From Desulfatiglans anilini DSM 4660 (GTDB lineage Bacteria > Desulfobacterota > DSM-4660 > Desulfatiglandales > Desulfatiglandaceae), in the NCBI RefSeq assembly GCF_000422285.1, contig NZ_AULM01000002.1:248001-312000 (forward strand): a DNA stretch of 64,000 nt. Direction: 5' to 3'. The notes under the pieces are model-generated. The model ran no database searches and was not told the origin of the DNA. It was given only the letters and a program-made list of their open reading frames with translations. The position numbers and the translations under genes were made by a program. Shown in pieces: positions 1 through 8,476 of the stretch. The stretch's first letter is position 1. The number at the start of each line of letters is the position of its first letter.

Positions 1-21
1 CCGAAGCCCCCGTCTGGTGTT

Positions 22-3000
22 TCAACCGGCCTGGTCGATCATGGCCATGATCTGCGAGGTGTCGAATCCCTTGAGGTGAATGGCCCCCGACCGGCAGGAG
101 GCGGCGCACAGACCGCAGCCCTTGCAAAGCTCCGACTGGATTTCGGCCTTGCCGGTCTTCTCGTTGAACCGGGGGGCCGAGTAGGGGCAGATGGTCACGC
201 AGACGCCGCACTGGCTGCAGAAGTTCGGGTCGACCTGGGCGACCGTGCCGCTGACCGGGATGATCTTCGCGGAGAGCAGGGTGACTGCCCGGGCGGCGGC
301 CGCCTGGGCCTGGGTGATGGATTCGTCGATCGGTTTGGGCGCATGGGCGAGCCCGCAAACGAACACCCCGTCCGTGGCGAAATCCACCGGACGCAGCTTG
401 ACGTGGGCCTCGGCGTAGAATCCGTCATCGTTCTGGGAAACCTTGTAGAACTGGGCGAGCGGGCTTTCCTTTTCGGGAACCACGGCCGAGGCGAGCACCA
501 GGAAGTCCGGCTGGATCTCCATGGGGCGCCGCAGGACGCGGTCGATGAAGCCGACCGAGAGCTTATTGTCTTTGACGGCCACATCCAGGCCCTTCTCGGA
601 GTTGTAGCGCACAAAGTGGATGCCGCGGGTGCGCGCCTCCCGGTAGAGGTCTTCGCGCAGTCCGTAAGGGCGCATATCCCGGTAGACAATGAAGATGTCC
701 ATCCGTGGATTGATGTCCTTCAGCTTGAGGGCGCTCTTGATGGACTGGGTGCAGCAGACCTTCGAGCAGTAGGGGCGCTCGGGGATGCGGGAGCCCACGC
801 ACTGGACGAAGACCGCCGTGTCGGCCTTTTCGAGTTCCGGGTCCTGATCGATGAAACGCTGTTGGAGTTCAAGCCCCGTCATGACGCGGGGGTCCTGCCC
901 GTAGAGATACTGGTCGGGCTTGTACTCGGAGGCCCCTGAAGCGAAGATCGTTACGCCGTGTTCCAGGACCTGGTCTTCGCCGTTCGTCCGGATGGTGGTG
1001 CGGAAATTCCCGACAAACCCGTCGACCTGCGTGATCTGGGAGTTGAGGAAGACCTGGATCCGCTCGTTGGACCGGGTGGCTTCGATCATCTTGGCGAGCT
1101 GGGCCTGAATGTCTTCCCCTCTCCAGGTCTCGTGCAGATGGATGGCATTCCCGCCGAGCGCGCCGGTCTTCTCGACCAGGTACGTATCGTATCCCTGATC
1201 GGCCAGATTGCGTGCGGCGGCCATGCCGGCGATTCCCCCGCCGATGATCAGGGCCGACGGGGTGATCTGGAGCTTCGGTTCGGGAAGGGGTTCGAGGAGG
1301 GCGACCTTCGCGACGGCCATCCTGACCAGGTCCTTGGCCTTGGCCGTGGCGGCGTCCGGGTCGTCCTTGTGGACCCAGGAGCACTGATTCCGGATATTGG
1401 CCATCTCGAACAGATATTTGTTGATGCCCGCGTTGGTCAGCGTCTCCTGGAAGAGCGGCTCGTGCGTCTTGGGTGTGCAGGCGGCGACCACCACGCGGTT
1501 GAGGTGCTGTTCCTCGATCACCTGCCGCATTTTGTCCTGGGTGTCCTGGGAGCAGCTGAACATGTTCTGTTCGGCGTAGGCGACGCCCGGAAGCCCCTTG
1601 GCGAACTCGACGACGGAAGGAACATCAACCGTCCCGGCGATATTGGTGCCGCAGCAGCACACGAACACCCCGATACGGGTCGGCTCGCCGCGGATGTCGA
1701 TCTCTTTCGGGATCTCTTTGGTCTTCGTCAGAGACCAGCGCGCCTCGGTGAGCCGGCTGCCGGCCACCCCGGCCGCTGCACTGGAATCCACGACGGAGGT
1801 GGGGATGTCCTTCGGGCCTTGACAGACACCGCAGACGTAAACGCCCGGGCGCGAGCTTTCAACCGGGGCGAAGCTGCTGGTGCTGGCGAAGTTGTAGTGG
1901 TCCAGCTTGACCCCGAACCGGGCGGCGAGCTCCGCCGATTCCGGATTGGCCTCGAGGCCCACCGACAGGACCACGATGTCGAAGTCCTCCTCGATCCGTT
2001 TGCCGGCTTCGTCCACATAACGGAGCAGGAGGCGTCCGTCTTCGAGGGGCGTGATGTTGGTGATCCTGGACTTGATGAAGCGCACGCCCATCTGATCCTT
2101 GGCGCGGTTGTAATAGCGCTCGAAATCCTTCCCATAGGTCCGGATGTCGATATAGAAGATGGTCGTGTCGAGCCCTTCCTTGCTGTGCTCCTTGGCGAGC
2201 ATCGCCTCTTTGATGGCGTAGGTGCAGCAGACGCCGGAGCAGTACCCCTTCGCCCCCAGGTGCTCGTCCCGGGACCCGACGCACTGCAGCCAGGCGATCT
2301 TCTTCGGCTCCTTGTGGTCCAGGGGCCTGACCAGATGGCCGCCGTAAGGGCCGGACGAAGAGAGGATCCGCTCGAACTCGAGGCTCGTCACGATGTTGGG
2401 GTGTTTGGCGTAGCCGTAAGTATCGTGGACCGCTGGGTCGAAGACCTGGCCGCCGAGCGCGAGGAGGATGGAGCCGACCTGCAGGTCGAGGTCTCTGCCT
2501 TTGTCCTCGTAGTTGATCGCCCCGGCCGGGCAGACCTTTTCACAGGTCCTGCACTTGCCCTTCGTCAGATAGATGCAGTTCTTGTCGTCGATCGCGTATT
2601 TGAGCGGCACCGCCTGCGGGTATTTGACATAGATGGCTTTGCGCTTGACCAGCCGCTCGTCGTATTCGTTGCCCACCTTTTTGGGGCATTTTTCGGCGCA
2701 CAGCCCGCAGGCGATGCACTTGTCAAGGTCCACGTACCTCGGGTGCTGTTTGACCTTGACGCGGAAATCCCCTTCAGTCCCCGAGACGTCTGTAACCTCG
2801 GAGAGGGTCAACAGTTCGATATTGATATGCCGGCCGACCTCGACCAGTTTGGGAGAGATAATTCACATGGCGCAATCGTTGGTCGGGAAGGTCTTGTCCA
2901 GCTGGGACATCATGCCGCCGATGGAACTGGATCTCTCGACCAGGTAAACGAAATAACCGGAATCGGCCAGGTCAAGCGCGGCCTGCATCCCCGTTATGCC

Positions 3001-3042
3001 ACCCCCAACGACCATCACAGCGCCGGTTTTATTCTGTGACAT
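22..3042 (-). CDS. hdrA: Selenocysteine-containing HdrA-like flavoprotein subunit
   Basis: Cytoplasmic FAD/Fe-S subunit of a heterodisulfide-reductase-like complex; in this family HdrA is the flavin site where electrons are split or confurcated. The ATG at 3042 follows an AGGAG site overlapping the end of hdrB. Residues 12-19 carry a GxGxxG FAD motif. The frame has one in-frame TGA (codon 60, bases 2865-2863) at [19 protein letters not shown], exactly where the family has Cys in its NDCAMC motif, and a bacterial SECIS-like hairpin follows. Read through, the product is 1006 aa. After the N-terminal flavin half come ferredoxin motifs ([11 protein letters not shown] and following), a CCCGTNIAG segment, a second FAD domain ([14 protein letters not shown]) and two C-terminal 4Fe-4S motifs ([22 protein letters not shown]). 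It is therefore the long, two-flavin-domain form. A start at the internal TTG at 2811 would lose the first FAD motif. It is the third gene of the leftward Hdr operon. Partners such as MvhD could lie beyond the left edge. Confidence 0.9.
2830..2865 (-). promoter_or_regulatory. UGA(Sec) codon with SECIS-like hairpin in hdrA
   Basis: On the minus strand the in-frame TGA (2865-2863) is followed after 15 nt by CTGGTC-GAGGTC-GGCCGG (2847-2830): a 6-bp stem including two or three G-U pairs and a six-base loop containing GGUC. The loop resembles the AGGUCU loop of the E. coli fdhF SECIS, and the loop GG sits about 23 nt after the UGA, in the range SelB needs. The hairpin was folded by eye, not computed. 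Confidence 0.75.
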
Positions 3043-3045
3043 GGT

Positions 3046-3930
3046 TTACTCCTCTTTGCCGGTATCGAAAAAAGACGTGACACCGCTGATGTCGATCTTG
3101 TTCCGCTTGATCCCGAGCGTCTCGGCATCGATGCCCATGCAGAGCCCGAGCAGTTGTGGATAAAGGATCGAAGCGAGATATTCCTTGTTGCCGTTATGGG
3201 AAACGATCGTCTGCTGGACCGTGTCGAACTGCTGCTGGCACCAGGGACAGGCCGTGCAGAGAAAGTCGGCTCCGGCCTTTTTTCCGTCCCGCAGTTTCTT
3301 GCGCGTCAGATCGAGCGACACGCGATCATTGATGCCCAGAAGCGGGGCACCGCAGCACTCGAGGCGCGTCGGCCAGTCGACCGGTTTGGCTCCGAGCAGT
3401 TTCACGAGCTCTTCGAAAAGGGTGGGAGCGACCGGATCGTCGAACTGGGTGACCTCGCTCGGGCGCAGGGCGTGACAGCCGTAGTGGGCGGCGATGCTGA
3501 GTCCCTTGAAGCTGGTCTTCAGGGTGTCTTTGAGCGTTTTGATGCCGATCTCGCGGTGCAGAAAAGGCAGAAGATGTTTGATCTCGGTCTTGCCCTCGTA
3601 ATGGAGACCCTCCCGGTCCAGGATCCGGTTGACGTCGCGTTTGAGGTCTTCATCCCCCCGGAGGGTGTATTGGGCCTTCCTGAGCGTACCGTAGCAGCAC
3701 TTGCACAGGGTCAGCATGTCCAGACCGGCCTGTTCGGCGAGGGCCAGGTTCTTGGCGGAGGAGACCAGAAAGGCCATCTCGTCGATATTGCGCAGCGGGT
3801 AGCCGCAGCAGTTGAATTCGCGGAAATCCCGGAGTTCGACCCCGAGGCGCGCCAGGACGGCGCGTGAAGCCGTCTCGTATTGTGGAACACGGGCCGGGAT
3901 GTTGCAGCCTAGGAAAAATGCAAAGTTCAT
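3046..3930 (-). CDS. hdrB: HdrB-like protein with two CCG domains
   Basis: 294 aa, the normal length of HdrB, the subunit that in methanogens carries two non-cubane 4Fe-4S clusters and reduces a disulfide. Both cysteine-rich CCG motifs are complete: C9, C41-C42 (FNCCGYP) and C76/C78-C79 (CKCCYG) in the first; C152 (YGCHALRP), C192-C193 (ECCGAPL), C225 and C228/C231 (CTACPWC) in the second. The stop codon is 3 nt before the hdrA start, so the two are translationally linked. A GAGGT site precedes the ATG. The real substrate is unknown: bacteria of this kind lack CoM/CoB, so a different disulfide or a protein partner is likely. Confidence 0.88.
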   Translation of the reverse strand: MNFAFFLGCNIPARVPQYETASRAVLARLGVELRDFREFNCCGYPLRNIDEMAFLVSSAKNLALAEQAGLDMLTLCKCCYGTLRKAQYTLRGDEDLKRDVNRILDREGLHYEGKTEIKHLLPFLHREIGIKTLKDTLKTSFKGLSIAAHYGCHALRPSEVTQFDDPVAPTLFEELVKLLGAKPVDWPTRLECCGAPLLGINDRVSLDLTRKKLRDGKKAGADFLCTACPWCQQQFDTVQQTIVSHNGNKEYLASILYPQLLGLCMGIDAETLGIKRNKIDISGVTSFFDTGKEE

Positions 3931-4078
3931 GGTTGGTACCTCAATTCCGTTCCATCATGACCAGACCCGGTCGGCCTGGCTCGAAGACTCGCACCGGCCC
4001 GCGCCCGGATCGCCCCGCCCGTGGCGGTTTGAATCTACGGAAACGGCCCGGCAGGATTGTTTCCAGAAGGACAGCCGA

Positions 4079-5851
4079 TCAGGCGGCCTGGCTTATGGCC
4101 CCGGACTTTCCGGCGGATTTCTCCTGATTGCGGATCGCCACATGCTTCAGTTCATACAGGATATCCGTAACCCGCACGTTCTGGGGGCAGTGCTCTTGAC
4201 ACTGATAACAGGTCAGGCAATCCCAGATCATGCGGGAACCGGCAGCCATATCGACGAGGCCCAGCCCGAGGGAGCACATGATCTGATGCGGCAGGAGCCC
4301 AAGGGCCTTTTCGGGTTCTTCGCAGCTGCCGACGACCGGGCAGACCGTGGTGCAGTTCTGGCATCCGAAGCAGTAGCTGAAAGTGTTTGCGCGGCTCAGT
4401 GCCGCCGCTTTGCCCGATGCCGGCGCATGGAGGGCGATGGGGCGGTTCTGGGCCTTCAGGGCCTCGAAATCCAGGACAAGCCGCCTCTTGGCCGATTCGC
4501 TCGGCTCCGGATAATCGTCGGAGACGAGGCCTTTGCGGAACATCCCGACGACGTAAGACAGCGGAGAGAGCACGACCGGGTCGGCGTAGCCTTTCTCGAA
4601 CTGCACCTCCCGGAGGTTGAGCCACATCTCCCTCAGGTTGATGCCGGAGGGGCAGACGACGGTGCAGCGGTCGCAGCTCGTGCAGACCCAGATGCCTTCG
4701 ATCAACGCCCGGTTCTCCTCGGGGCTGAGGGTCTTACGGGAAGCCCATTTCTTGAGCACGGCCATTTTTTCGGACGGGAGGATGCATTCGTTCCCGATGG
4801 CGGCGAAGGCCCCGGCGGCCGAACAGCGCAGACTGCAGGTGCCGCAGTGCGTACAGGCATCGAGCTCCATCACCTGGCGGGTGGCGACGTTGGCCGGATC
4901 GGACGTTGCGGGGTCCATCACGGCGTTGGCCAGCAGGCTGACCGGTGTGGCAAAAAGGTGAAACATCTTGCTGAAAGGCAGATAGGCCAGACCGAAGAAG
5001 CATGCCCACAAATGGATGTACCAGAGGAAGGTGCCCGCGCCGGCCCGGTCCAGGCCGAGGGCGATGGGGCTGATGAGCTTCGCCAGCGGATATCCGGTGA
5101 AGGCCCACTGCGGCGCGGAGTGGCATGCCGCGCAGCTCATTTCGTGCATATCCCCGCCGTCGGCAAGGGTCTCGGCGTCGAAGGGCGGCTTGACGCCAGG
5201 GGAGACGACGCCGAAATGTTCGACCCAGTAGCTCTCGAGCGGCCTGACGTCCTCCGGGTCGGTCGAGTCGGCATAGTCCTCCACCATGCGCATGAAGTCG
5301 GAGTGAGACGTGATCTTGACCGCCTCGAGGAAGATCCCCGAAAGGATGATGACGGCGACGATGAGGATGGCATATTTATCCATCCCGCTGGTCCTGAGGC
5401 GGGGCACCTTGAGGATGAACCGCCGGTAGACGGCGATGGCCACGCCGACCACGACCATGGCGCCGAAGAGGTTTCTCAGGAACATGTAGGGATTGAGGGT
5501 CGAGGCGTAATCCGGGAAAACCGCGACGGTCAGGATGCTTCCGAGGGCGTGCATCAGCAGGAGCAGCGTGAATCCCCAGAAGATCAGCATGTGCATGACC
5601 CAGCGCAGGGTGTCTTCCTTGAGGATGCGCTGCTGCCAGAGGACGTCGACAAGGAAGGCCTTGATCAGGGTTCCCATCCTGGCGCTGAACAGGACCGCCA
5701 GGATGCCTTTCATGGCGGCTCCGATGCGCTCGCCGGTCGAGAAGCTCTTCCCGCCCATGCCCACCTGACGGGTGAACCATGTGCCGATCTTGTAAATCAG
5801 GCCGATGAGAAAAATGGCCAAAGAGGTATAGAGCGAGACGGTGAAAAACAT
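4079..5851 (-). CDS. Membrane cytochrome / HdrC-like Fe-S fusion protein
   Basis: 590 aa and first gene of the leftward operon, with a strong GAGGAGGT site before the ATG. Hydrophobic segments at about residues 4-25, 85-112, 125-147, 158-178 and 272-300 form a NarI/HdrE-like membrane part. Between the fourth and fifth lies one CAACH haem-c motif (240-244). The C-terminal half has four CxxCxxCx3C sets (333-343, 390-400, 494-504, 545-555), that is, two HdrC-like two-cluster modules in a row. There is no CCG domain; HdrB is encoded separately by the next gene. I infer that it anchors HdrAB to the membrane and links quinone or periplasmic electron carriers to it. The layout recalls QmoC and the NarI-like subunits of Dsr/Tmc complexes but with a different domain order and an added c-type haem. 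The exact family name is uncertain. Confidence 0.8.
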   Translation of the reverse strand: MFFTVSLYTSLAIFLIGLIYKIGTWFTRQVGMGGKSFSTGERIGAAMKGILAVLFSARMGTLIKAFLVDVLWQQRILKEDTLRWVMHMLIFWGFTLLLLMHALGSILTVAVFPDYASTLNPYMFLRNLFGAMVVVGVAIAVYRRFILKVPRLRTSGMDKYAILIVAVIILSGIFLEAVKITSHSDFMRMVEDYADSTDPEDVRPLESYWVEHFGVVSPGVKPPFDAETLADGGDMHEMSCAACHSAPQWAFTGYPLAKLISPIALGLDRAGAGTFLWYIHLWACFFGLAYLPFSKMFHLFATPVSLLANAVMDPATSDPANVATRQVMELDACTHCGTCSLRCSAAGAFAAIGNECILPSEKMAVLKKWASRKTLSPEENRALIEGIWVCTSCDRCTVVCPSGINLREMWLNLREVQFEKGYADPVVLSPLSYVVGMFRKGLVSDDYPEPSESAKRRLVLDFEALKAQNRPIALHAPASGKAAALSRANTFSYCFGCQNCTTVCPVVGSCEEPEKALGLLPHQIMCSLGLGLVDMAAGSRMIWDCLTCYQCQEHCPQNVRVTDILYELKHVAIRNQEKSAGKSGAISQAA

Positions 5852-5939
5852 GCGTGGACCTCCTCATGATTCCCTTGAAGAGCGAAAAAGCGCCGGATTT
5901 CAAGGCGATTCGCCCCAGATTGGCTTTTTACGATCAACC

Positions 5940-5968
5940 CTTATAGCGATTGTGATGGGATTTGTCAA
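5940..5968 (-). promoter_or_regulatory. Sigma70-type promoter of the Hdr operon
   Basis: Reading leftward: TTGACA (5968-5963), a 17-nt spacer, then TATAAG (5945-5940). The -35 is perfect and the -10 matches 5 of 6. It lies about 90 nt before the ATG of the membrane subunit and points into the operon. Confidence 0.72.
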
Positions 5969-6096
5969 AAGAATATATTCACAAACTTTTCCGATTGTTG
6001 TGTTATGATGCCGCCGCTGGCGAATTGCGGAACGCTTGCGGCGAGAGAGGAAAAACTCTCGCTTACGGATCGGAAACTCGGCTGCACCGGGGAAAC

Positions 6097-7065
6097 ATGA
6101 TCGGGATCGACATAACTTACAGGGCCCTGTACGACGAATGCCGTCTTTGCCCGCGCGACTGCAGGGTGGACCGCTCGGTCCGACGGGGGGTTTGCGGAGA
6201 GGCCGACACCCTGCGGGTGGCCTATGTCGGGCCGCATTTCGGCGAGGAGCCGCCGATCAGCGGGGAAAGCGGATCGGGCACCGTCTTTTTCACCGGCTGT
6301 GCCGTGCGCTGCAGCTTCTGTCAAAATCATCAGATCTCCCGCGGAGGTTTGGGGGAGGCGCTCACGGCAGAGGATCTGGCGGGGCGGATCATCGATATGG
6401 CGGTGCGGCACCGTGTGCACAATATCAATTTTGTCACGCCCGACCATTTTTTCCCCGATGTCTTCGAGGTCGTGTCGATCTGCCGGGATAGAAGGGGAGT
6501 CCGTCTACCTCTGGTATACAACCTCTCGGGGTATCAGCAGATCGAGTCGCTGCAGCAGGCGGAGCCTTTTGCGGATGTCTACCTGCCGGATTTCAAGTAT
6601 TCGGATTCGGAACTCGCGCGCAAACTGTCGCGGTGTCCGGATTATCCGGGGAAGGCTTTGGATGCGGTCGCCGAGATGATCCGGCAGAAGGGATTTCTGG
6701 ATTCGTTTGAAACGGATGGCGCGCCGGCCGGCAAGGGCGTGCTGGTCCGGCACCTGATCCTCCCCGGGGAGGTGGAAAATTCGATGGACGCCTTGACCAT
6801 GCTTTTCCTGGAATTTGGTGACAGGCTCCCTCTGAGTTTGATGTCGCAGTACCACCCCGTGACCCCCCAGGCCCACGCCCCCCTCAACCGCCGGCTGTCC
6901 AAGGATGAGTTCGACCGGGTCTTCGATCACGCGCTCGCCCTGGGATTCAGAAACCTGTTCGTACAGTTCCCTGAGGAGGTTCCGGCGGGGGGGGAAGGAT
7001 TCTCATGGAGACCGCTGGTCCCCGATTTCACCGCCGAGGAGCCTTTCGCCCCCATCCTCGGCTAG
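6097..7065 (+). CDS. Radical SAM protein, PflA-like activase family
   Basis: About 322 aa. A CxxxCxxC radical-SAM cluster motif is seen in FFTGCAVRCSFCQNHQIS, preceded by an N-terminal cysteine-rich segment (CRLCPRDC and a later RRGVCGE), typical of the stand-alone family annotated as pyruvate formate-lyase activating enzyme-like or AmmeMemoRadiSam enzymes. It would cleave S-adenosylmethionine to make a radical; the substrate is unknown, and no glycyl-radical enzyme lies next to it. The frame is open from 5962, but residues before the ATG at 6097 look non-coding and the family starts close to this methionine. The ribosome site is weak. It is divergent from the Hdr operon, so they share the upstream region. 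Confidence 0.75.
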   Translation: MIGIDITYRALYDECRLCPRDCRVDRSVRRGVCGEADTLRVAYVGPHFGEEPPISGESGSGTVFFTGCAVRCSFCQNHQISRGGLGEALTAEDLAGRIIDMAVRHRVHNINFVTPDHFFPDVFEVVSICRDRRGVRLPLVYNLSGYQQIESLQQAEPFADVYLPDFKYSDSELARKLSRCPDYPGKALDAVAEMIRQKGFLDSFETDGAPAGKGVLVRHLILPGEVENSMDALTMLFLEFGDRLPLSLMSQYHPVTPQAHAPLNRRLSKDEFDRVFDHALALGFRNLFVQFPEEVPAGGEGFSWRPLVPDFTAEEPFAPILG

Positions 7066-7078
7066 ACCGGGCGTGAAC

Positions 7079-7120
7079 CTGCAGATTGACGCCGAGATTG
7101 GCAAAAGAGCCCATTTGCGG
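7079..7120 (-). repeat. Fragment of the long palindromic repeat family
   Basis: GACGCCGAGATTGGCAAAAG and its flanks match, in reverse orientation, the left arm of the palindromes at 27026, 33280 and 33470. Only this arm is present. It lies between the radical-SAM gene and the HdrD-like gene. Confidence 0.5.
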
Positions 7121-7226
7121 CGGTCCGGTTTCCGCTCCCCTCCGGGAGCGAGGTCCTCTGCAGGCAGGCGCTTTCGGCGTCTCACGTGCCGCATGGAGGT
7201 CCTGTCTTTTCACCCGTCATCTTCTG

Positions 7227-7255
7227 TTGACATTAATGAAGGCGTTTGTTAAAAA
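7227..7255 (+). promoter_or_regulatory. Candidate promoter of the HdrD-like gene
   Basis: TTGACA (7227-7232), a 17-nt spacer and TAAAAA (7250-7255), about 70 nt before the ATG at 7328. The -35 is perfect and the -10 matches 4 of 6. Confidence 0.55.
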
Positions 7256-7327
7256 AATCACATTCTTTGGATTGCCCCCGTCCGGCTGAACCGGAGAGGC
7301 CAAAATTCTGAAAGGAGCACACACCTC

Positions 7328-8476
7328 ATGGAAGCATTAACCCCGCTGTATGAAGTCAATGAGGCCCTCGTGGCGATGGGGGCCGAGAAACTCAATCTCT
7401 GTATGCAGTGCGGCATGTGCGCCGGGTCCTGTCCGTGGCGGATCGTCGACGGGCCGTTCAATATCCGCAAGATGATTCGCATGGCGCAACTCGGCGTGGA
7501 AGGCTACGAATCGGATGACATTCTTTTTGGCTGCACGACCTGCAACAAGTGCGTTTTGAAATGCCCCAGGGGCGTCACCATTATCGACATCGTCAAGGCC
7601 ATGCGCGGTATGATGGTCGAGGCCGGCTCGCTCCCGGGCGTCCTCAAGACCGCCACCGGAAGTGTCCACAGCCAGGGCAACCCATGGTCCGAACCACGTG
7701 AAAAGCGCGTGCAGTGGATGAGCGGACTCGATATCCCGCAGTTCGACGGCAGCCAGGAATACTTCCTGTTCGTCTGCTGCACCTCCACGATCGACGCGCG
7801 CAGCCAGAAGATCGCCAAGGCTATGGTGAAGGTGCTCAAGGCGGCCGGGGTCTCCTTCGGCGTGATCGGCGAGGAGGAGAACTGCTGCGCGGAATCGGTC
7901 CGCAAGATCGGCGACGAAGAGCTTTTCACGAAGACGGCCGAGAAAAACATCAAGCTTTACAGCGAAAAGGGCGTCAAAAAGGTCATCACCACCTCCCCCC
8001 ATTGTTTTTATACGTTTTCCAAGGAATACCCGGAATTCGGCGCGGATTTCGAGGTGATGCATTACACGCAATTCCTGGCGAAGCTTCTGGAAGAAGGCAA
8101 GATCAAGCTGTCCAAGACCCTGGACACCACGGTCACCTATCATGATCCTTGCTATCTCGGCCGGCACAGCGAGGTGTACGACGAGCCGAGGGCTCTCATC
8201 TCCGCGGCGACCGGCGGAAAGCTCGTCGAGATGAAGCGCATCCGAAAAGACAGTCTGTGCTGCGGCGCCGGCGGCGGGCGGCTTTGGATGGAAACCCCGC
8301 CCGAGTGGCGTTTTTCGGACCTGAGGATCCACGAGGCGTGCGAGACCGGGGCCAAGATCCTCGCGACAGCCTGTCCTTACTGCATCTCCATGCTCGAGGA
8401 CAGCCGCAAGACCACCAACAAGGAAGATGAAATCGAGATCAAGGATATCTCCGAGCTGATTGCCGAAGCGCTCTAA
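7328..8476 (+). CDS. HdrD-like (HdrCB fusion) Fe-S oxidoreductase subunit
   Basis: 382 aa. Two N-terminal 4Fe-4S motifs (C25/C28/C31/C35 and C69/C72/C75/C79) are followed by two CCG-type domains: FVCCTST, ENCCAES and SPHC in the first; DPCYLGRH, LCCGAGGG and ACPYC in the second. This is the arrangement of HdrD, DsrK and the Fe-S subunit of glycolate oxidase, proteins that pass electrons between a membrane cytochrome or flavoprotein and a thiol/disulfide partner. An AGGAG lies about 12 nt before the ATG. It is a single-gene unit with its own candidate promoter and a terminator. It sits 2 kb from the Hdr operon, so the two may work together, but that is inference. No membrane partner is adjacent. 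Confidence 0.85.
   Translation: MEALTPLYEVNEALVAMGAEKLNLCMQCGMCAGSCPWRIVDGPFNIRKMIRMAQLGVEGYESDDILFGCTTCNKCVLKCPRGVTIIDIVKAMRGMMVEAGSLPGVLKTATGSVHSQGNPWSEPREKRVQWMSGLDIPQFDGSQEYFLFVCCTSTIDARSQKIAKAMVKVLKAAGVSFGVIGEEENCCAESVRKIGDEELFTKTAEKNIKLYSEKGVKKVITTSPHCFYTFSKEYPEFGADFEVMHYTQFLAKLLEEGKIKLSKTLDTTVTYHDPCYLGRHSEVYDEPRALISAATGGKLVEMKRIRKDSLCCGAGGGRLWMETPPEWRFSDLRIHEACETGAKILATACPYCISMLEDSRKTTNKEDEIEIKDISELIAEAL

Follow-up and report, generated by a model that had tools for sequence, protein, structure and literature searches.

Organization of the Locus

The window, which denotes the whole stretch of DNA analysed (64,000 nucleotides), carries on its minus strand an operon whose first gene, opening with ATG in the ORF list, encodes a membrane cytochrome, here termed CYT. 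Genes for an HdrB and for an HdrA with one selenocysteine (Sec) follow. The features of the operon and the evidence for each are given below.

4079..5851, minus strand: CYT, a 590-aa membrane cytochrome b/c with two dicluster FeS modules (ORF list, Pfam, NCBIfam, family alignment, AlphaFold model)
5120..5134, minus strand: CAACH covalent-haem motif, CYT residues 240-244 (conservation and topology prediction)
4592..4906, minus strand: FeS module 1 of CYT, residues ~316-420, SdhB/FrdB-like dicluster (family profile against PDB sequences)
4121..4459, minus strand: FeS module 2 of CYT, residues ~465-577, HdrC-like dicluster (family profile against PDB; VIA-align)
3046..3930, minus strand: HdrB, 294 aa (ORF list, Pfam/NCBIfam, alignment to HdrB of solved HdrABC structures)
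22..3042, minus strand: HdrA, ~1006 aa, with one Sec, two FAD-type halves, and inserted and C-terminal ferredoxin-type domains (TGA read-through, Pfam/NCBIfam)
2863..2865, minus strand: TGA codon read as Sec (NDCAM-U-I) in HdrA (read-through, TGA/Cys alternation, selB)

An earlier note, made from the sequence of the window, had described an operon of the cytochrome with HdrB and a Sec-containing HdrA, and this arrangement is recovered here, with HdrB at 3930..3046 and HdrA at 3042..22 including its in-frame TGA. Because the next long ORF past HdrA, outside the window, lies on the opposite strand (L009 10280..11992), the operon appears to consist of CYT, HdrB, and HdrA only. On the plus strand, a radical SAM protein (5962..7065; Pfam) is located between the cytochrome operon and a gene at 7328..8476 for a divergent HdrD-like protein, which contains an HdrC-type dicluster and two CCG domains. 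Counterparts of this HdrD-like protein are found in L151, of the same genus (99%), and near CYT in L081 (54%), and other HdrD-like genes directly adjoin CYT in L123 and L139.

The NarI-like membrane part that the earlier note had read in the 590-aa chain is visible to Pfam as Nitrate_red_gam over residues 76-195 (24.6 bits versus a cut-off of 22.9). Dicluster Fe-S domains exceed their Pfam cut-offs at residues 329-404 and 492-559, the chain having four CxxCxxCxxxC motifs that make up two dicluster modules; no CCG domain is present among the Pfam matches of the 590 residues. Pfam thus recognizes only separate domains, and no NCBIfam family reaches its own cut-off on the chain, in keeping so far with the earlier note, which did not recognize the layout as a named complex. 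The best NCBIfam match is NF038018 (QmoC), with 82.7 bits versus a curated cut-off of 300; profile positions 193-319, the NarI part, match the N-terminal part of CYT, and the HdrC part of the profile matches C-terminal stretches. The HdrC model TIGR03290 gives 66 bits (curated cut-off 160), best at residues 492-576. An assignment of CYT as QmoC itself was rejected, since the score is far below the cut-off and the domain order is reversed.

The Two FeS Modules Differ in Type

The earlier note had viewed the four cluster motifs as two HdrC-like pairs. Two dicluster modules are indeed present, but only module 2 is clearly HdrC: when the CYT family profile is run against PDB sequences, module 2 finds HdrC with an E value of 1.2e-18, whereas module 1 is nearer to SdhB/FrdB (best E 4.5e-6). 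A duplication of HdrC was therefore rejected in favour of an SdhB-like and an HdrC-like pair. HdrC models weakly touch module 1 as well, TIGR03290 matching in two stretches. The assignment of module 1 as SdhB-like is drawn from sequence profiles, as VIA-align gives no SdhB match over module 1 alone and places its SdhB-type rows mostly over module 2. Modules of the SdhB/FrdB type feed membrane quinone sites, and module 1 appears closer in sequence to these than to HdrC.

The AlphaFold model of CYT has a mean pLDDT of 74.2, which is moderate, and falls below 50 in the linker of residues 426-493. Its best structural match is EtfD of M. smegmatis (Foldseek E 2.8e-6; Z 23.3 with 338 aligned residues and an rmsd of 3.8), followed in VIA-align by HdrC chains with Z ~10 (module 2 versus 5odc_C, Z 10.7) and by NarI with Z ~9. 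The model shares the overall fold of EtfD, membrane and FeS parts included, but not an EtfD-type CCG domain in the same chain.

A Predicted Periplasmic Haem-c Site

The motif C240AACH244 sits before the last membrane helix, between predicted helices 156-181 and 272-293, which are membrane helices 4 and 5, just where the earlier note had placed it. The charges of the loops (KR 4.6 and DE 0.1 in 143-157, KR 0.2 in 108-121, and an acidic loop 181-271) indicate that CYT has its N terminus outside and its C terminus inside, with the motif loop 181-271 in the periplasm. The haem motif is thus predicted to be periplasmic, and the cytoplasmic placement that would have spoken against the earlier note was not obtained. 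A hydrophobic stretch at ~51-69 could be an extra or in-plane helix; the placement of loop 181-271 is unaffected by it, being set by the positive loop 143-157 and by the final helix, which precedes the FeS domains.

Conservation was counted in 95 of the 101 cytochrome rows, six that are too short (L093, L135-138, L143) being left out. C240, C243, H244, M189, H87, H101, H298, and the 16 cluster cysteines are unchanged in all 95 full-length relatives, and H280 is kept in 94, the exception, L111, having a gap. Within loop 181-275 of CYT, M189, W209, C240, C243, and H244 are the only invariant residues among the 95 relatives. The CxxCH motif, M189, and the 16 cysteines are also invariant in a 12-sequence alignment with divergent members, down to 36% identity. 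A chance CxxCH was rejected, since the motif recurs in 95 of 95 full-length relatives; just two other CxxCH motifs occur in these proteins, each starting at residue 390 inside an FeS motif. Alongside the motif on the predicted periplasmic side, the genome encodes maturation factors (two matches for cytochrome c assembly), as would be expected of a c-type cytochrome. The invariance of M189 invites the guess that it could be the second axial ligand of the haem c. The 18-residue spacing of H280 and H298 equals that of H187 and H205 in NarI.

HdrB and the Selenoprotein HdrA

HdrB aligns over nearly its full length with the HdrB subunits of solved HdrABC complexes. C9, C41, C42, C76, and C79 and C152, C192, C193, C228, and C231 align with those of 5odc_B, so that all ten cysteines of the noncubane clusters, including the bridging ones, are present. 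Among 88 HdrB rows, the bridging sites carry Cys in 85 (C79) and 83 (C231), and the other eight do so in all 88. The score versus TIGR03288, 245.8 bits over residues 3-282, does not reach the curated 345. Since a pure electron wire would not need them, the bridging cysteines favour a disulfide-reducing role; in the passages on EtfD, a cysteine arrangement of the bridging type is absent (PMC13083937).

HdrA scores 851.8 bits versus NF040770 (HdrA2; curated 1100) when the scan covers only the part downstream of the TGA. The inserted ferredoxin-type domain corresponds to the one that binds ferredoxin in the methanogen complex, according to the section describing that complex (PMC9430772). At the TGA site, 66 readable adjacent HdrA genes of relatives have TGA (55) or TGT/TGC (11) and no other codon, and the genome contains selB. 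A SECIS search by folding downstream of the TGA gave no hairpin signal (z-score -0.32 for 52 nt), and Rfam yielded nothing above the gathering score over window positions 1-8000.

Distribution and Gene Neighbourhoods

A phylum search at E<=1e-30 detected CYT relatives in 54 of 395 Desulfobacterota genomes. A species-genome scan returned 391 relatives; the best 80 were retained, and a one-genome oddity or an assembly artefact was rejected on this count. The record titles of the best 80 of 391 name Desulfobacterales, Desulfobacteraceae, Desulfococcaceae, Syntrophaceae, Deltaproteobacteria, and once just Proteobacteria; Desulfatitalea alkaliphila and strain NaphS2 are included. Neighbourhoods were compared over 93 non-redundant rows, window included, which comprise these best 80 of 391 (79 full-length) and loci chosen from the phylum search. 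The sample is non-random, several of the chosen loci having been taken for their divergence, and the duplicates L086 and L098 were dropped.

The triplet, for which the earlier note had suggested a search in other Desulfobacterota, is common in this sample: CYT is followed by HdrB in 88 of 93 loci, with 3 negative and 2 undeterminable, and HdrA comes after in 69, with 14 negative and 10 undeterminable (L083 is counted as lacking HdrA with just 2.7 kb of sequence past HdrB). In L101, L107, and L118, CYT has no neighbouring HdrB despite 2.8 to 10 kb of downstream sequence. By context, the 93 rows are labelled as contig cut (34), Flx (15), no adjacent donor (11), no HdrA (11), NuoE-NuoF (8), formate dehydrogenase (6), MvhD only (3), and no HdrB (3), with single rows for an HdrD-like gene plus second HdrA and for a GltD-type domain inside HdrA. 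The last label was given by hand to L123, whose HdrA contains Pyr_redox and Fer4_20 (GltD-like). Neighbour families were checked on examples: FlpD/MvhD, the NAD/FAD domain, Fer4_22, the molybdopterin domain, and Complex1_51K. NuoE- and/or NuoF-like genes divide HdrA in L054, L055, L058, L059, L061, L067, L080, and L154, and in L055 the second half of HdrA starts with a stretch fused to it, which we take to be NuoG-like. The five commonest informative context states (51 rows) require at least 10 changes on a quick tree in which 29 of 90 inner branches are open, so the contexts have changed repeatedly, with the reservation that a row without an adjacent donor may have one elsewhere in its genome.

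Two further arrangements occur. CYT-HdrB is preceded in L146 by GlpA (576.8 bits versus a cut-off of 552.8) and followed in L144 by GlpK (730 bits versus 590), so that CYT-HdrB takes the position expected of GlpB/GlpC. In L135-138, the chain is encoded in pieces. An FeS protein of 291-293 aa, which matches CYT ~321-579, adjoins HdrB, and in place of the single haem c there are a 716-aa membrane protein with seven CxxCH motifs and a protein of 272-282 aa with six, so that a periplasmic c-haem part is kept but differently built. L136-138 also carry MetF- and MetV-like genes oriented like the operon, and MvhD- and HdrA-like matches lie upstream of them; the pair of L136 scores 136 bits (MTHFR) and 133 bits (DUF5981), and those of L137 and L138 are assigned by likeness of the first residues only.

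The Host Genome

The genome contains dsrA over its cut-off and two DsrC-family genes and thus probably belongs to a sulfate reducer. No donor module is found next to HdrA in the window or in the same-genus L151. Ten FlpD/MvhD-type matches occur, none of which adjoins the CYT operon. At the start of the same contig (C2), L161 803-9059 holds a long HdrA-like protein, an FlpD with a TGA, and FlxC/B/A-like genes; this Flx-type cluster, far from the window operon, is a possible donor. In L164 (2986-8040; genome C20), two HdrA-type flavoproteins, the second with an FlpD domain, are followed by HdrC and HdrB. The cluster resembles QmoAB-HdrCB without the membrane subunit, there being no cytochrome among the listed ORFs.

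A Possible Membrane Dock for HdrA-Type Complexes

The data are best explained, with a probability of roughly 0.55, by a modular membrane dock: CYT, HdrB, and HdrA would form one membrane-bound Hdr-type complex that links HdrA-type flavin complexes to menaquinone and to periplasmic cytochromes. This explanation draws on gene order, motifs and their conservation, module exchange, and TGA/Cys alternation, all read from sequence, and on the predicted topology; from these we infer complex formation, bound cofactors, the ferredoxin branch, the direction, and the part of DsrC. The 14 of 93 loci in which no HdrA follows speak against it, as do the lack of a donor module beside HdrA in the window and L151, the bridging-type cysteines kept by HdrB, and the moderate quality of the CYT model. 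The anchoring, the periplasmic haem site predicted by topology, and the triplet neighbourhoods uphold the earlier proposal of a membrane-anchored Hdr complex wired to periplasmic or quinone electrons, from which the duplicated HdrC has to be removed. That reading was also too narrow, the more informative fact being that the unit occurs widely across Desulfobacterota, where it is paired with different electron-input modules.

In the proposed dock, CYT would hold two b haems, one between H87 and H298 on the cytoplasmic side and one between H101 and H280 on the periplasmic side, and one periplasmic haem c on C240, C243, and H244, perhaps with M189 as the other axial ligand. From outside to inside, the order would be haem c, the two b haems, the SdhB-like dicluster, and the HdrC-like dicluster, with module 2 serving as the canonical HdrC bridge to HdrA and HdrB. 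HdrA would be the flavin hub, fed in relatives by NADH (FlxABCD or NuoEF) or formate (FdhAB-like) modules of the same operon, and in the deep branches CYT-HdrB would serve GlpA (glycerol-3-phosphate) without a neighbouring HdrA. Electrons of the cytosolic donor would enter HdrA, or GlpA, from which one branch would lead to ferredoxin, while the other, after crossing the HdrC-like and SdhB-like clusters, would run over the b haems to menaquinone, to periplasmic cytochromes via haem c, or to both. HdrB could be a relay or could also reduce a disulfide such as that of DsrC. CYT would thus probably wire a soluble, energy-splitting HdrA-HdrB complex to membrane electron carriers and to the outside of the inner membrane too. 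Entry at HdrA or GlpA and exit via CYT is the favoured direction, which the genes suggest but do not settle.

The main rival is the reverse direction, as in DsrMK(J) or Tmc: menaquinol or a periplasmic cytochrome c would reduce CYT, and HdrB would reduce a disulfide, for example the trisulfide of DsrC, while HdrA supplied electrons or drew them off. The preserved cysteines of HdrB, all ten of its catalytic-type noncubane cluster sites, speak for this direction, as do dsrA and the two DsrC-family genes; a periplasmic haem c would suit input from a periplasmic cytochrome, and the split form has 13 haem-c motifs. Murali et al. propose the same in their passage on the HdrA/haem-c/CCG complex of HotSeep-1 (PMC10553843). 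The swappable partners (Flx, NuoEF, formate dehydrogenase, GlpA, MTHFR), however, look like cytosolic electron inputs, and the reverse direction is possible but rather unlikely.

It is improbable that CYT stands in for QmoC and passes electrons to APS reductase, where a Qmo-like cluster lacks a membrane subunit. The genome has no QmoC over the cut-off, QmoC is the best NCBIfam match of CYT, and the cluster of L164 would be in want of a cytochrome, but the low score and reversed domain order of CYT stand against such a role, as does the presence of its own HdrA and HdrB in an operon that in relatives includes modules for NADH or formate. More improbable still is an ETF:menaquinone oxidoreductase of the EtfD/EMO kind, in which HdrB would be the split-off CCG half: EtfD is the closest solved fold (Z 23.3 over 338 residues), but the CYT chain is without a CCG domain, HdrB keeps the bridging cysteines that EtfD lacks, the haem c and second dicluster are extra, and HdrA is the usual partner.

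If the proposed dock is correct, the CYT operon, found in many Desulfobacterota, encodes a candidate membrane dock whose covalent-haem site faces outwards. It would provide a testable route by which sulfate reducers and syntrophs could couple the oxidation of NADH, formate, or methyl-THF to menaquinone and to electron transfer in the periplasm or outside the cell. A wider proposal, whose chances seem somewhat short of even, is that the cytochrome b/c-SdhB-HdrC chain and the catalytic-type HdrB constitute an undescribed, widespread docking unit of Desulfobacterota. At least five cytosolic oxidoreductases (Flx and NuoEF for NADH, formate dehydrogenase, GlpA, and MetFV of the split form) would plug into it, mostly via HdrA. 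Such a unit would allow a three-way exchange among a flavin at the ferredoxin level, a disulfide, and menaquinone or periplasmic cytochromes, and could be the missing membrane link for HdrA-type complexes.

Comparison with Known Systems

No description of the CYT layout was found in the openly licensed literature, which is not a claim of its absence from print. QmoC unites HdrC and a NarI-like domain in one chain and is a partner of HdrA-like flavoproteins; it has one dicluster and is not known to carry a haem c, and its HdrC part is N-terminal to NarI, the reverse of the order in CYT. DsrMKJOP, TmcABC, and Hme combine a NarI-like cytochrome b, an FeS/CCG protein, and a periplasmic haem c. In contrast, CYT unites haem c, cytochrome b, and FeS modules in one chain and is accompanied by a separate HdrB and by HdrA. 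Genes of the type of the soluble NADH/Hdr system FlxABCD-HdrABC come after HdrA in 15 of 93 CYT rows, but in these loci the membrane cytochrome takes the place of the soluble HdrC.

As characterized in the relevant passages, EtfD of M. smegmatis (9ojn) is a menaquinone-linked FeS wire (PMC13083937) and, like CYT, has a cytosolic [4Fe-4S] dicluster downstream of a NarI-like membrane part. CYT differs by the haem-c motif of the periplasmic loop, four haem-b-type histidines (H280 in 94 of 95), and a second dicluster, and its operon encodes the CCG unit as a separate HdrB with catalytic-type cysteines, plus HdrA. The transmembrane and HdrC-like parts are also joined in one chain in HdrF of Desulfobacterium autotrophicum, which, as described by Strittmatter et al., holds an HdrB (CCG) part in addition; the passage on HdrF mentions no haem c (PMC2702500).

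A related idea is already in print for HotSeep-1. The section by Murali et al. on AMM42179-42180 depicts a complex in which HdrA is joined by a CCG-domain protein that binds haems c (PMC10553843), that is, HdrA with a haem-c membrane oxidoreductase; the CCG domain lies within the haem-c protein, and the complex is set apart from CYT by description only. In MetFV-HdrABC-MvhD of Sporomusa and Moorella, the HdrA hub is thought to be docked to the membrane by an unknown dock, and the passages on these complexes describe no membrane cytochrome that carries an HdrC part, as CYT does (PMC8578096, PMC9430772). According to the same passages, HdrA of Moorella has a GltD insert, as does HdrA of L123, and MetFV is encoded beside the Hdr operon, as in L136-138.
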